Position numbers and translations under genes: made by a program. The notes under the pieces were generated by a model. The model searched no databases and was not told where the DNA came from. It saw only the letters and a program-made list of their open reading frames with translations. From assembly GCA_000716465.1 (NCBI GenBank), contig JNWL01000032.1, positions 1-64,000 of the forward strand: a stretch of 64,000 nucleotides of DNA, written 5' to 3'. Below, in pieces: positions 9,312 to 15,141 of this stretch (the stretch's first letter is position 1; every line of letters begins with the position of its first letter). This DNA is from Streptomyces bikiniensis. Its GTDB lineage: Bacteria; Actinomycetota; Actinomycetes; Streptomycetales; Streptomycetaceae.

Positions 9312-9327
9312 TCCTCATCTGCCTACT

Positions 9328-9366
9328 GGTGGGCGCGGACGGTTTCGAACCGCCGACATCTGCTTT
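9328..9366. repeat. attL-like 39-bp copy of tRNA-Val 3' half
   Basis: This is identical over 39 bp to 15068-15106, the 3' half of the intact tRNA-Val gene (anticodon-loop position 37 through the T arm, acceptor strand and the first bases beyond). Identity stops at the third anticodon base (C at 9367, G at 15107). Such direct repeats mark tRNA-targeted integration. With the intact tRNA it brackets a 5.7-kb insertion. It is not a functional tRNA because the 5' half is missing. Confidence 0.85.
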
Positions 9367-9505
9367 CTAAGCTCGTGTGGGACGCCTTCACCAAGGGCGG
9401 ATCGCTGGTCACCACCGCCATGACGGTTCGCGTGCGACCACCGTCGTCCGCCGCCGTTGACGTCAGTTTTGGATGTCAGCTCCGGCGACGGCTATGAGGG
9501 GTCGG

Positions 9506-9805
9506 TCACTCCTCGTCACTACGTTCCAGGACCAGACCGACGGACCCGTCTTCCAGCCCGTTGCTGTCTTCGAGGTGCAGATGGGCTCCATCGGGAACTC
9601 CTTCGCCTGCCAGCACCAGAAGATGCCCGGCAAGCGTCCTGAGCCCCGCGGCATTCGCCTCGATGACGACCTCGGCCCCGAGGTTCCGCACCTCGATCCG
9701 GGCATCGACATCCCAGGAGAAGCGGAGCCCCGTGCCTTCTGCGGCAGCCGTGACGTGAGTGCTCTCGATCGGCGCTGAGCCGGTTCCGGAAGTCATGGAA
9801 CTCAT
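9506..9805 (-). CDS. Imm32-family immunity protein
   Basis: A 99-residue cytosolic protein. The C-terminal core matches the Imm32 family: VVIEANAAGLRTLAGHLL, LAGEGVPDGAHLHLED, then DGSVGLVLER. Imm32 proteins are predicted antitoxins or immunity partners of polymorphic toxins. It lies 85 bp downstream of two smaller leftward genes, possibly as the last gene of their operon. Two ATG starts are possible (9805 and 9796), and I use the first. There is no associated toxin in the window, so this may be an orphan immunity gene carried by the island. Confidence 0.8.
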   Translation of the reverse strand: MSSMTSGTGSAPIESTHVTAAAEGTGLRFSWDVDARIEVRNLGAEVVIEANAAGLRTLAGHLLVLAGEGVPDGAHLHLEDSNGLEDGSVGLVLERSDEE

Positions 9806-9890
9806 GATGCCTCTGCATGGGCAAGGCGCCGGAGACAGGGGCTCGGTCTTCATACACAAACACTGACGGAAGCCCAGGAAACGGCGGTTA

Positions 9891-10169
9891 TCAGTCGCGC
9901 CAGGCGTCCGTGATCTCGGCACGATCGATGCCTCTCCTCGCTGCCGGAGCAGCCACATCCACACCGTGCTCCCCCAAGGTGAGATCGATGTATTCGCACA
10001 GCTGCTCCCGCTCTTCAGTGCAGTAGCCGGCGCCACCGTGGCTCGCGTCGCCGTCGACAGCATTGAGCGCGGGAACAACCTTCTCGACCGCCCCAAAGAC
10101 CTCATCGTCAGGGGGCTCCAGGAGACCACGTACCTCCGCCTCGAACGCCTCCAACGCTGAATCCGTCAC
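9891..10169 (-). CDS. Small acidic hypothetical protein (92 aa)
   Basis: A 92-residue acidic, helical protein (FEAEVRGLLEPPDDEVFGAVEK, then TEEREQLCEYIDLTLGEHG and RGIDRAEITDAW). I recall similar Streptomyces hypotheticals but no named domain. The GTG start at 10169 is separated by 2 nt from the stop of the upstream 42-codon gene (TGA-GG-GTG), which implies translational coupling. It lies inside the tRNA-Val island, upstream of an Imm32 gene. A role as an immunity or antitoxin-like protein is only guessed from context. Confidence 0.72.
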   Translation of the reverse strand: MTDSALEAFEAEVRGLLEPPDDEVFGAVEKVVPALNAVDGDASHGGAGYCTEEREQLCEYIDLTLGEHGVDVAAPAARRGIDRAEITDAWRD

Positions 10170-10320: not shown

Positions 10321-10338
10321 CGCTGAACTATTTCAGCG
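10321..10338. promoter_or_regulatory. 18-bp inverted repeat upstream of the 42-aa/92-aa operon
   Basis: CGCTGAA-CTAT-TTCAGCG is a perfect 7-bp inverted repeat. It lies 21 bp upstream of the tiny gene's start and overlaps the stop codon of the decayed transposase. It could be an operator for the small operon or an edge hairpin of the IS. Confidence 0.35.
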
Positions 10339-11090
10339 TTGCCGCTCCAGGGTGAGGACGGCAGCGGCGATTGACGACATTCGATTCGGACTACAGCGCG
10401 CGTGGTGGAAGATCCGCCAGGACTTCAGGCGGGCCACGCCCCGTTCGACCGGTGCCCGTGCTGCCGAGAGCGCGCGGTTGACGGTGCGCTGGGTTGGTGA
10501 CAGGTCGCGGCCGGGGGGCGTCTGACCGGTGTGGTGACCCACGGTCCGGCGCCGATGTAGGCGCGGCCGGCAAGGATCGGGACGCCTTGGCGTTCGCAGA
10601 ACCGGATGATCCGGTGGGTGCGGGCCGCGGTCAGGTCATGGGTCCGGCCTGGCAGGGCGGGCGAGATCCACAGCAGGCGTCCGGTCGGATCGGTGATCAC
10701 CTGGACGTTCACGCCGTGGCGGCGGTGCTTGGTGGAGTAGTCTGCCCGGCCGTCGCCGAGGCGGTCGCATGCGGCGAGGGTGCCGTCGAGCAGGACGAGT
10801 CCGGGTCGGCTTCACGCAGGACTTCGAGCAGGCCAGGTGCTCGCACCGCGAGCAGGTCGACCACGGTGTGGGTGTAGGCGTGGGCGGTGCCCACCGAGAT
10901 ACCGAAGCCGGCGGCGATCCGCGCGAGGGTGTTGTGCTTGCGCAGGTACACCAAGGCGACCAGCGCGCTGGTGCGGTGGGAGCTTGCAGCGGCGGTCGCC
11001 CTCACGGGTGACGATGAGCATGGTGACCCACTCGACCAGCGCGTGCGGCAGGTCGAGTGCGGCAGGATGGGAAGCCAACGAGGCTCCTGT
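10333..11090 (-). mobile_element. Degenerate IS5-family insertion sequence (DDE_Tnp_4 transposase)
   Basis: The leftward sequence encodes a recognisable IS5/DDE_Tnp_4 transposase split over at least three frame changes. In order the pieces are LDLPHALVEWVTMLIV; a HTH part ALVYLRKHNTLARIAAGFGI; the first acidic motif VLLDGTLAACDRLGDG; the second motif WISPALPGRTHDLTAARTH; AGRAYIGAGPW; and the C-terminal RAPVERGVARLKSWRIF with the last catalytic Glu. Frame switches fall near 10975, 10805 and 10530. No intact transposase can be made, so the element is dead. Terminal inverted repeats were not identified, so the outer limits are approximate. Confidence 0.8.
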
Positions 11091-11244
11091 GCGGACGGGT
11101 TGAGACTTCGAACACCTCCTCCAACGGCACAGGCGCCTTGTGCGTTGCGGGTCCCGACGCCGTGAGGCAAACGGCTTGACGCACACCTTGACGCGGCGGC
11201 ACTTCTTCCACCGACTGCGGGGGGTGTGTGACAGGCTCGACAGC

Positions 11245-12330
11245 TCATTGGATCAGGTCGGTATGTGGATGCTCGGGAGAGGTCGGGCAGACGTAGATCT
11301 GCATGTTGTCGGTGCTGCCGACTTCGACCTTGGTCGGCTGCGAGGGGTCCTGGCCACAGCAGTGACCGACGGTGTTGGCGGCGTGGGCGGCGGCCTGTTC
11401 TTCGCAAGGCGCCCAGCTGTGTCCCTCACCGCCGTCCCATTCGAAGGAGGCGATGGTCAGCAGCGGGACCATCTGTACATCACAGACGGTGCAGTATCGG
11501 GGGTTGGGATCGGTGCGGCCCCACGGAGGCCAGCCACCGACCTTCCAGCCGGGCGCGTCAGCCAGATGGATGTCATAGAAGTCCTTCGGACAGTCCGCGT
11601 AGGAGCTGTCCACGTCGGCACCGGCTGCCTGCCATCTGCTCCAGTCCTCCACCATCAGCAGCATCTGCGGGCTCAGATCGAGACTGGCGGGGTATTCGGT
11701 GATCGCTTCCGGTGCCAGCACGCACGGTTCCGGCACATAGCCCTCATAGTTCACCTCGTACGGCTCGGGCGGTGTGGCGAGGACGTCGACGACCTCGGCG
11801 GCGGATCGCCAGAACAGCGCGGTCGACGGCTTCCAATTCGGATCGTGGTCGTAGGGGCACCACAGAACCTGGAGCAGATCGTCCTGTCCGGGCGGCCGCA
11901 ACAGGGGTATGTCGCGCAGATACAGCTGGGCCACGGGCAGCATGGGGACCGGGCAGTCCGCGGGCAACGGAGGGCCGGCGTCGAGGCGTTCCGCGAGCCT
12001 CGCGGCGTTCCGTTCCTTGATCGACTCCTCCTCGGGCGTTATCCCAGGACCATCGTGATCACCGTGCCACCGGGCCCGCATGCGCCTTATGAGCCGCACT
12101 TCGGCCGGCGACTGGCGGAACCCACTGTCACGGTGCAGGTGCGAGGCTTCGCAGTGCGGCCATGGCTCCTCAGCCGGCCACAGCAACGGCCCCCCGACCG
12201 AGCTCTCCCCGACCGAAGGCGATCCGGGGCGGGGGTGCAGCCTAATCGCAGGACGTGCCAACGCCGTCAGCTCGGGAAAGACCGCGGTCACGTCCACGGG
12301 CCGCGGCGGAGTAGTACGTACGAAAACCAT
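11245..12330 (-). CDS. DUF1963 (YwqG-like) family protein
   Basis: A 361-residue cytosolic protein. The N-terminal region has GSPSVGESSVGGPLLWPAEEPWPHC, the Gly/Pro-rich entry of DUF1963/YwqG proteins, followed by VAQLYLRDIPLL, FWRSAAEVVD and DLSPQMLLMVEDW. The C-terminal third carries a CTVCDVQM pair and HCCGQDPSQPTKVEVGS, as in the YwqG fold. The biochemical role is unknown, but these proteins recur in toxin-immunity loci. ATG 12330 is preceded by GAGAGG at some distance; the TTG at 12360 is less likely. It is the only large intact gene in the tRNA-Val island. The gap 11091-11244 shows no gene. Confidence 0.82.
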   Translation of the reverse strand: MVFVRTTPPRPVDVTAVFPELTALARPAIRLHPRPGSPSVGESSVGGPLLWPAEEPWPHCEASHLHRDSGFRQSPAEVRLIRRMRARWHGDHDGPGITPEEESIKERNAARLAERLDAGPPLPADCPVPMLPVAQLYLRDIPLLRPPGQDDLLQVLWCPYDHDPNWKPSTALFWRSAAEVVDVLATPPEPYEVNYEGYVPEPCVLAPEAITEYPASLDLSPQMLLMVEDWSRWQAAGADVDSSYADCPKDFYDIHLADAPGWKVGGWPPWGRTDPNPRYCTVCDVQMVPLLTIASFEWDGGEGHSWAPCEEQAAAHAANTVGHCCGQDPSQPTKVEVGSTDNMQIYVCPTSPEHPHTDLIQ

Positions 12331-12586
12331 GCTGGTGATCCTCTCACCAGCCACTGACAACCCCTGGCTGCCTCAACCGGCTTCGGTGGCATCGGTGTTT
12401 AGCTGGTCAAGCCCAACGCATGCAACCTCGGCCACAGTGACAGCAAGCCTGCCTGTGTGACAACTAGCATGCTTCGGCTCAGCCATCACTCGACCAGTGG
12501 CCACTTCGAAAAAGCTCACTGAAAACCCAATTCGGTTGTGCACTCTCGTTGATGTCAGACCGCCCTGACATCCTGCGTCGGTGAGA

Positions 12587-13075
12587 ATGACATGGGCCGA
12601 CTTCTGGGCGCTGATAGCCACCCTGGACGGCGAAGCAGCCCAAGAGAACTGCTCAGCGCCTCGCCGAGGAGCTGAGCCACCGCCCCGTCCCCGACATCAT
12701 CGGCTTCGCCGAACGTCACGCCGAGGCCCTCTACCGCCTGGACCGGGAGAAGTTCGGAACCCTCCCCGTGGTCGACATGACAGACCGAGACGGCGGCCCG
12801 TTCCCACAATCGTCCGACGTGTTCCTGTACACACGCTGTGCCGTGGTGGCCGCAGGCCAAACCGTGTGGGAGGGCGTCTTCTTCGACGTCGACGAGTTCG
12901 CCCCGTATACCTCCACCGAGTACGACGGTGAGTGGCTGCTACCCGCACCGGACAAAGCGTACGAACTGGATACCGGCAAGGAGTGGGACCGCACGGCCCG
13001 CCACTGCTTCGAGAGCTACTCCAATAGAGACGGTTGGCCACACCTACGAAACCGAGGCGAGCCACCACTTGACCT
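12587..13075 (+). pseudogene. DUF4240 family gene with a frameshift
   Basis: The rightward sequence begins MTWADFWALIATLDGEAAQE, the DUF4240 N-terminus, but the frame fails just after ENC. One base later another frame carries on as LAEELSHRPVPDIIGFAERH, ALYRLDREKFGTLPVVDMT, LYTRCAVVAAGQTVWEGVF and RTARHCFESYSNRDGW, the rest of the domain. A single-base insertion near 12645 explains this. The 3' end is uncertain because the second frame stays open to 13343 in sequence that no longer looks like the family. DUF4240 proteins often sit in polymorphic immunity clusters. The gap 12331-12586 upstream holds no visible gene. Confidence 0.65.
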
Positions 13076-13204
13076 GCAGGGCCAGTGGCCTCGCGGACCT
13101 GGCAAGATCGAGGGGGCGGGGCAGTGCGACGAGGGGGAGGACCGGTGGGAAGCCTGTTGCGTGTCGGGGACGTGTTTCGGTCTGCTCGAAACAGAGATCC
13201 CGCG

Positions 13205-13573
13205 ATGGCGTTCATCGACGGTCACCCAAACATCCACCACGTCACAGCCTCGGAGAGGCTCGCTCAGATCCAGCTCAGCAAGGGCATCAACCCGATTGCC
13301 AAGATCAAGGCGCCCGGCGGGCCGCGCCGTCCGGGCATCCTGATCCGTTCCAGCCCGTGGAAGGCCGGAACGGCTGAAACGCCCTGGCACGATGTGTTCG
13401 ACCTGGACAACGGTCGAATCCTCTATTTCGGCGACCATCGGGTCGACCACACGGTGCCGGTGGGCACCACACAAGGCAATGCGGTACTGCTGGAGGCACT
13501 GGAGGAACACCAGGGGCTCACTGCGGAGCAGCGCGCACCGGCCGTACCACTGCTGGTGTTCGCCGCGGTCTAG
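13205..13573 (+). CDS. ScoMcrA-like type IV restriction endonuclease, N-terminal fragment
   Basis: A 122-residue fragment that ends at an in-frame TAG (13571-13573); the same frame then continues for 449 more codons as the next entry. The text HPNIHHVTASERLAQIQ, RPGILIRSSPWKAG, HDVFDLDNGRILYFGDHR and PAVPLLVFAAV matches the N-terminal SRA-like module of ScoMcrA-type enzymes, which senses modified DNA. In the intact family the strand VLVF is followed directly by the sequence found here after the stop (RNKTPKGYVEFCG). The start ATG 13205 has only a weak ribosome-binding site. The stop most simply arose from CAG (Gln). Confidence 0.75.
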   Translation: MAFIDGHPNIHHVTASERLAQIQLSKGINPIAKIKAPGGPRRPGILIRSSPWKAGTAETPWHDVFDLDNGRILYFGDHRVDHTVPVGTTQGNAVLLEALEEHQGLTAEQRAPAVPLLVFAAV

Positions 13574-13612
13574 CGCAACAAGACGCCCAAGGGATACGTC
13601 GAGTTCTGCGGT

Positions 13613-14920
13613 GTGGCGGTGATCGACCACGCCGAGCAGATCGAGCAGCAGGCGAGGGGAATCCCCTTCCCGAACTATCGATACGAACTGTCCGTCCTGG
13701 ATCTGAACGCAGAGGGCGATCGGGTCGACTGGGCTTGGATCGAGGCTCGGGGCAACCCTGAGCTCTCGACCGCGAACGCGCTCAAGCTCGCTCCCCATTC
13801 CTGGCGCCAGTGGGTGGAGCAGGGGCATGCCGCGACGCCCGAGGTTCGGCGTCGGGCCGTTCGCCCTCCCAGGGACAGGGAACCGGTCCGGCAGTCGCCC
13901 GAGAGCGGCCGGGAACTCCCGCCGCCGCTTCCCGCGCCACGCGAACCGGGCGTCTCTGGTTCGGCCTCCCGCACACCGACCGAATCGTCCGCCGAGCTCA
14001 TGGTGAGCGTGCTCATGGACAGATTGAGGAACCTCCGGGTCCACAAGAGGAACGGTCGGCAGAGCAGGCACAAACCGTTGGCTCTGCTGTGGGGCATCTC
14101 CCGAGTGGCCACGGGCAGGCCTCATCTCGCACCTTGGCGAGAGTTCCGTGAGGAAGTGGGCGGTCTGTTGGCCGAGTTCGGCCTTCCCGAATCCTCCGTC
14201 ACCCCCGAGTACCCGTTCGTGCACCTGCAGACGAGCCGACTGTGGGATGTCCACGGCCTCCCACCCGAGCTGGACGCCGTGGCCCACGCCGCAGCGTTCG
14301 ACAGGCTCAACCCCGAAGGGGGAGTGACCGAGCAGGTCGCGCGGCTGCTGGGGGACCCCTTCGTCCGGTCCCAGGCGGTGGCTGTCCTGCGGGAGACCTA
14401 CCTGGCAGACATAGATCAGCACGCCCTGCTGGAGCGGCTGGGCCTGGCCGGCTACGAAAGCGCCGGCGGCATCGAGGACTCCACAGAGGATCACGCGAGG
14501 AAAACGGTTCCTGCCGCACGCCGCACGGTCACTTCCTCCCGCGTCATCCGCGACACCGTCCTGACGGCCAGGGTGAAGAAGCTGCACGGCGACCGCTGTC
14601 AGGTGTGCGCCCTCCAGCTGTCGACCCGCTTCGGCACCTACAGCGAGGCGGCCCACATCCGTGGCCTCGGCCGCCCTCACAACGGCCCCGACGAACAGAC
14701 CAACCTGCTCGTCCTGTGCCCGAATCACCACGTCCAGTTCGACACCCTGGCGATCTACATCGACACCGAAGGAACCGTTCGCTCGACCGCGAACAACAGC
14801 TCCATGGGCCCGCTCCGGACACACCCCGCCCACCCGCTCGACGAAGCGCACCTTCGCTACCACCGAGCGCTCTGCGGCAGGGACACGACCGCCCATGCCA
14901 CCCAAGGCAAGACCTCCTGA
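13613..14920 (+). CDS. ScoMcrA-like type IV restriction endonuclease, sulfur-binding and HNH part
   Basis: A 435-residue product if translated from GTG 13613 (or 13619). It has the end of the SRA-like module (VAVIDHAEQIEQQARG, DWAWIEARGN), a linker, then a sulfur-binding-type domain: HKPLALLWGISRVATGRP, EFGLPESSVTPEYPFVHLQ and LWDVHGLP. The Tyr-Pro in PEYPF and the HK before PLALLW sit where ScoMcrA reads phosphorothioate DNA. The C-terminus is a complete HNH nuclease: RCQVCALQL, YSEAAHIRGLGRPHNGPDEQ, TNLLVLCPNHHVQFD. The amber codon at 13571 separates it from its DNA-reading front end. Unless suppressed or re-initiated, the enzyme is inactive. Confidence 0.8.
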   Translation: MAVIDHAEQIEQQARGIPFPNYRYELSVLDLNAEGDRVDWAWIEARGNPELSTANALKLAPHSWRQWVEQGHAATPEVRRRAVRPPRDREPVRQSPESGRELPPPLPAPREPGVSGSASRTPTESSAELMVSVLMDRLRNLRVHKRNGRQSRHKPLALLWGISRVATGRPHLAPWREFREEVGGLLAEFGLPESSVTPEYPFVHLQTSRLWDVHGLPPELDAVAHAAAFDRLNPEGGVTEQVARLLGDPFVRSQAVAVLRETYLADIDQHALLERLGLAGYESAGGIEDSTEDHARKTVPAARRTVTSSRVIRDTVLTARVKKLHGDRCQVCALQLSTRFGTYSEAAHIRGLGRPHNGPDEQTNLLVLCPNHHVQFDTLAIYIDTEGTVRSTANNSSMGPLRTHPAHPLDEAHLRYHRALCGRDTTAHATQGKTS

Positions 14921-15060: not shown

Positions 15061-15069
15061 CGTCACCGG

Positions 15070-15141
15070 TGGGCGCGGACGGTTTCGAACCGCCGACATC
15101 TGCTTTGTAAGAGCAGCGCTCTACCCCTGAGCTACGCACCC
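15070..15141 (-). tRNA. tRNA-Val (anticodon UAC)
   Basis: A 72-nt cloverleaf reads on the minus strand: acceptor GGGTGCG/CGCGCCC (one T-G pair), D arm GCTC/GAGC, anticodon arm CTGCT-CTTACAA-AGCAG with anticodon UAC for Val, and T arm GGCGG-TTCGAAA-CCGTC. CCA is not encoded (ACCG follows). Its 3' half (15070-15106) is duplicated at 9328-9366, so this copy is the att site reconstituted after integration. Upstream 15142-15299 contains no gene. Confidence 0.95.

Follow-up and report, generated by a model that had tools for sequence, protein, structure and literature searches.

The window analysed here, a 64,000-nucleotide stretch of Streptomyces bikiniensis DNA on an 82,725-bp contig (source assembly of 7.39 Mb in 163 contigs, rated 99.77% complete), contains a predicted restriction gene of 591 codons before its final stop, of which codon 143 is an in-frame amber (Table 1). 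The TAG shares its frame with the preceding open reading frame (13085..13573) and with the following one (13613..14920, open from 13574), and beyond it the frame remains open for 448 codons. The gene lies in a 5.74-kb segment bounded by direct repeats 5,740 bp apart, and its named closest relatives at this locus, among the matches listed, are Streptomyces.

Table 1. Features of the restriction gene and of the island around it, in window coordinates
Position	Strand	Feature	Basis or remark
9325..9371	+	47-bp copy of the tRNA-Val 3' end, left island boundary	
9506-10129	-	Imm32-family immunity gene, inside the island	
10425-11407	-	DDE_Tnp_4 / HTH_Tnp_4 transposase remnants, two pieces	
12581-13055		DUF4240 gene, upstream neighbour	24.4 bits, under cut-off 27
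13133..13140	+	likely ribosome-binding site GGGGGAGG	sequence
13145..14920	+	whole SRA-SBD-HNH endonuclease gene, amber-interrupted	start from homologue lengths and GGGGGAGG upstream
13265..13570	+	N-terminal half, MspJI/AspBHI-type SRA domain	PF18062; MspJI 4f0p
13571..13573	+	in-frame amber TAG	serine codon in siblings L032, L033, L035, L044
13574..13825	+	C-terminal half, SRA domain	PF18062
13613..13615	+	first candidate restart GTG after the amber	by eye
14000..14002	+	in-frame ATG directly before the SBD, candidate restart giving a bare SBD-HNH protein	by eye
14015..14446	+	sulfur-binding domain (SBD), HK and YP pocket residues	SprMcrA/ScoMcrA matches; fold of relative P0005
14495..14869	+	TagI-like HNH nuclease	HNH_2 14597-14764; motifs CQVC, AHIRG, CPNHH
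15065..15111	+	47-bp repeat reaching into tRNA-Val, right island boundary	96% identity to 9325-9371
15068-15141	-	tRNA-Val(TAC)	

The amber cuts a match to the Pfam domain RE_AspBHI_N (PF18062), leaving profile positions 8-102 on the N-terminal side and 111-184 on the C-terminal side. When read through, the domain gives one match of 105.6 bits, versus 54.1 and 40.2 bits for the halves (gathering cut-off 27), and the split match across the stop is far beyond chance. The agreement of the frames and the joining of this match bear out the claim of the preliminary description that the TAG lies within one enzyme gene. A match to HNH_2 (PF13391) over its cut-off is found near the end of the gene. In a sequence search of the PDB, the 571-residue read-through product matched MspJI (4f0p) over residues 4-235 (E 1e-49), the SBDs of SprMcrA and ScoMcrA over residues of about 271-414, and the HNH part of TagI (6ghs) over residues 431-555 (E 1.4e-31). 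The sulfur-pocket residues of the window, H-K and Y-P, align with the HR and YP of ScoMcrA in the comparison that had been proposed earlier, and each is conserved in 95-98 of 101 full-length relatives among the matches listed. These residues and the three HNH motifs given in Table 1 are intact, so that the sulfur-binding-like domain and complete nuclease described previously are both present. One core position of the SBD, Trp in 87 of the 101 listed relatives, is occupied by Val in the window as well as in all four siblings. PADLOC labelled the gene as pieces of a methyl-directed restriction enzyme.

Structural comparisons were made with an AlphaFold model of an intact relative, P0005 (mean pLDDT 70.7, pTM 0.43), in which the domains are usable, their arrangement relative to one another is not, and the HNH part is weak. 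The top fold match of this model was MspJI (E 5e-23), and it also matched the SprMcrA SBD (1.3e-8) and, weakly, TagI (3e-6, TM 0.16), which superposes poorly; AspBHI, LpnPI and other SBDs were matched as well. The stop falls at residue 143, which is modelled at the end of strand 136-144 and ahead of strand 147-170, so the N-terminal product would be without the second half of the SRA domain. Ending inside the SRA beta-barrel, this half is unlikely to fold, which argues against the earlier suggestion that the two halves could work separately as far as the N-terminal one is concerned. We infer that the intact gene would encode a type IV, modification-dependent restriction endonuclease. Its N-terminal MspJI-type SRA domain would serve as the reader of modified cytosine and its SBD as the reader of backbone phosphorothioate, with cleavage nearby falling to the C-terminal HNH domain.

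The preliminary description had called this enzyme ScoMcrA-type, a designation that its architecture does not sustain. Like ScoMcrA (S. coelicolor Sco4631; PDB 5zmm, 5zmo), the window gene has an SRA module, a C-terminal HNH nuclease and the logic of a type IV enzyme, and its pocket resembles the H116/R117/Y164/P165 of ScoMcrA (available part of PMC6224610), with K in place of R117. However, ScoMcrA is ordered head-SBD-SRA-HNH (PMC7461809, as far as available), whereas the window gene is ordered SRA-SBD-HNH, has an SRA domain that matches MspJI/AspBHI instead, and is broken; no match to the ScoMcrA head domain was found in it by Pfam, by PDB sequence search, or by fold search of the P0005 model. 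With MspJI and AspBHI (PDB 4f0p, 4oc8) it shares the N-terminal SRA-like domain, but the likeness covers residues 4-235 of 571 only, and its nuclease matches the HNH of TagI; to our knowledge MspJI has no SBD. TagI has an HNH nuclease too, but is described as SRA-HNH without an SBD in the available part of PMC6212794, and its N-terminal part has no sequence match to the window protein in the PDB search. SprMcrA and EcoWI have an SBD followed by an HNH domain, as here (available part of PMC7461809), but are without an SRA domain, and the window gene scores below the curated cut-off of the model for such phosphorothioated DNA-binding restriction endonucleases (NF045808; 88.2 and 89 bits, cut-off 180). 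No description of the order SRA-SBD-HNH was found in the literature searched, and the accessible part of PMC8569181 makes no mention of an SBD.

The gene had been taken to begin at 13205, but GTG 13145 is very likely its true start, because the closest homologues among the matches listed are 590-591 aa long, the 20 extra codons 5' of 13205 are common to the siblings, and GGGGGAGG lies just upstream. This stretch has one G more in the window than in siblings L032, L033 and L035.

A sequencing error at the stop is unlikely, because the identical truncated product occurs on four contigs, one of them longer than the window's. This product, P0122 (122 aa), is identical to window 13205-13570; it is one sequence, and the longest contig carrying it measures 221,176 bp versus the 82,725 bp of the window's contig, which means that it is present in at least one further assembly, although the four contigs could be deposits of one isolate. 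An error of sequencing or assembly at 13571 would have to explain only a single base, the neighbouring DUF4240 gene differs by a one-base insertion that is known from the window assembly, and the assembly of sibling L044 shows the look of indel errors. Yet the change is a substitution, in an assembly of high rated completeness, and with the repeated occurrence of the exact 122-aa product this makes such an error very improbable. We read the event as real: one base change has inactivated a gene that is predicted to encode a dual-sensor restriction enzyme of type IV.

For the family, we used the best 120 of 185 homologues found, with precomputed PF18062, PF26340 and PF13391 matches; all three domains occur in one protein in 100 of these 120. 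The family comprises about 100 protein clusters, is from Streptomyces wherever an organism is named among the matches listed, and is mostly labelled there just as HNH endonuclease. An alignment of 101 full-length members (P0002-P0102; P0103-P0121, partial or of other architecture, were left out) has a sense residue at the site of the stop in every listed relative: serine in 45, threonine in 43, proline in 8, alanine in 4 and glycine in 1. One protein is thus the norm of the family, and intact two-gene arrangements are not. The proposal that replacing TAG with CAG would restore the protein is wrong, since glutamine occurs in none of the 101 and all four closest siblings encode serine there. A functional amber, read through to give full-length enzyme at a low level, would be in keeping with the long undecayed frame past the stop; but a stop at this site in none of the 101 listed relatives means that there is no conserved recoding site, and we regard readthrough as extremely improbable.

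A locus search in genomes taken one per species gave 26 loci, 13 of them nearly full length, and the frame is open in 11 of these 13 (in L034 with an internal in-frame shortening). The stop, which the preliminary description had suggested looking for in sibling strains, is in none of L032, L033, L035 and L044; the first three are open, with 95.5-96.5% DNA identity to the window. The two loci that are not open are L042 and L044. In L044 (WAC08241, CP042279.1), which has serine at the stop site and three internal indels, an independent loss was considered and dropped, because all six neighbouring frames tested are also in pieces, and the breaks are probably an assembly error; two of these six frames overlap each other, so both need not be real genes. 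CP042279.1 is a complete-genome record, whose broken neighbours suggest uncorrected indel errors.

A search that admitted only proteins of 78-248 aa returned 24 fragment-sized homologues of 106-237 aa, some of them on contigs too short to judge and some perhaps from other SRA families. All but one of the 24 start in the SRA domain, and their matches end anywhere from residue 59 to 234. A splitting hotspot was considered because the L042 copy, from strain CB02366, breaks only a few codons after the stop of the window, but was rejected: the ends do not pile up at any one place, although there may be a mild crowding at residues 103-136 (9 of 23). A further gene that seems to be split is represented by P0124 and P0147, each of which comes from a Streptomyces MAG and has 21,396 bp as the length of its longest contig. 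These scattered ends and this pair suggest that loss of the SRA-SBD-HNH gene through independent breaks is probably recurrent.

The branch of the window carries 18 nonsynonymous and 15 synonymous singleton changes, plus the stop, compared with 0/12 in L032, 18/13 in L033, 13/17 in L035 and 9/7 in L044, a count that leaves out gapped codons and 24 non-singleton variable sites. No relaxed selection is measurable against L032, L033 and L035 pooled (31/42; Fisher p 0.30), and in comparison with L033 and L035 the replacements of the window are neither more radical nor rarer in the family (p 0.70; 17 of 18 scored). With no measurable decay the stop looks recent, and the data fit equally a C-terminal part still under some selection.

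A rival reading is that the C-terminal half may be made from GTG 13613 or ATG 14000 and work as a phosphorothioate-only SBD-HNH enzyme, the methyl reader having been discarded. Bare SBD-HNH enzymes such as EcoWI are active (PMC7461809, available part), database proteins of 288-307 aa begin at residues 269-271 (P0146, P0147 and P0149 are of this kind), the pocket and HNH residues of the window are intact, and its branch has no excess of amino-acid changes. The absence of decay is nevertheless weak evidence, because a recent stop leaves little time for it. By eye, no Shine-Dalgarno-like stretch is seen in the 20 bases before GTG 13613 and no clear one before ATG 14000, the product from GTG 13613 would also carry half an SRA domain, and gene callers put a start in any broken gene. 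We consider a working C-terminal half doubtful.

The setting of the gene points to a simpler course of events. As in the window, the gene is flanked by a duplicated tRNA end in L032 and L044. A plasmid origin and a phage origin were both tried and rejected: no plasmid record held 80% of the query (the best held about half), and there was no phage match. A stretch of about 10321-12524, which holds the transposase remnants, is missing between the flanking matches in L032, L033, L035 and L044. In the upstream DUF4240 gene, a one-base insertion near 12653 shifts the frame and the usual stop near 13053 is lost, while the gene is open in L032, L033 and L035. That two neighbouring genes are both broken speaks for a local decay of an accessory island. 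The loss is likely to be a recent, ordinary and near-neutral decay of an accessory defence gene, and not an adaptation to a present mark of the host. A single point mutation to an amber would have inactivated the gene, with translation ending inside the SRA beta-barrel, and this would be part of the decay of a small tRNA-Val island in which the gene just upstream is broken too. The undecayed C-terminal half fits continued selection instead, and a writer of the mark may have been lost or may lie on unassembled DNA.

The preliminary description had proposed that silencing could be adaptive in a host with sulfur-modified DNA, and that dnd genes be looked for in the same genome. Profile searches gave no match to DndC and none to the methyltransferase domain PF00145 in the genome of the window, and thus lend no support to silencing as a response to a mark now present in the host. 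This search for writers covered DndC and PF00145. Of 150 same-genus genomes, 6 have DndC matches over the cut-off of the model, and of 14 control genomes, 5 have weak matches that all stay below it; PF00145 matches in 10 of 14 controls. Among the 13 carriers of the SRA-SBD-HNH gene, 11 have PF00145 matches, including 9 of the 11 with intact copies, which indicates that loss is not compelled by a C5 mark in itself. A further seven genomes had no DndC either: six of them have related SBD-HNH genes, and the seventh (L057) has an SRA fragment in a locus with no SBD or HNH match.

The proposal does fit in another lineage. dndC is present in one carrier genome of the 13, that of CB02366, and in this strain the SRA-SBD-HNH gene has lost its frame through a 13-bp tandem duplication. 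Its product is P0126, the representative of a two-sequence cluster on 14 contigs, so that the break is probably real and settled. The dnd locus of this strain (L074, 5401-11924) has dndA divergent from dndB-dndC-dndD, with dndA, dndB and dndD over cut-off and a DndE-like open reading frame named by eye. The association of dnd with a broken copy fits adaptive loss in this strain and is suggestive, as one case. It also fits published work, again with n=1: according to the available part of PMC3009677, expression of ScoMcrA together with dndA-E is lethal to the host, and no ScoMcrA homologue is present in 40 of 41 sequenced dnd+ strains. Fewer than 3.6% of predicted phosphorothioate-dependent enzymes may neighbour dnd genes (available part of PMC7461809).

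For the window itself, an adaptive loss would mean that the intact enzyme harmed a phosphorothioated (or 5mC-methylated) ancestor, that the broken allele was selected, and that the writer has since been lost. The association across the 13 carriers depends on one genome, with a Fisher p of 0.083 for CB02366 only, 0.15 when the window is added as broken, and 0.21 when L044 is added too. SBD-region matches and DndC also co-occur as chance predicts in 149 same-genus genomes (2 of 6 dndC+ versus 54 of 143; p 1.0), a table in which SBD-positives were hand-picked from match coordinates and two 150-genome draws were assumed to be the same. Together with the lack of DndC and PF00145 matches in the host and the PF00145 matches of most intact carriers, this makes past adaptive loss unlikely in the window, and near-neutral decay remains our preferred explanation.

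A broken copy of such a gene is ordinary, and the useful part of this finding is a family that would combine, within one protein, an MspJI-type reader of cytosine marks, a reader of sulfur and an HNH nuclease. A more far-reaching possibility, which we consider improbable, is that SRA-SBD-HNH genes in a broken state are relics of past contact with phosphorothioation, each lineage that gained a dnd cluster having had to lose this dual-mark enzyme. If this were true, intact and broken alleles would record past epigenetic turnover, with CB02366 as a present case and the window as one in which the dnd cluster has already gone. Intact siblings of about 96% identity, together with the damaged copy in a strain that has dnd, make it directly testable whether a sulfur-sensing nuclease must go before a cell can mark its own DNA with sulfur.
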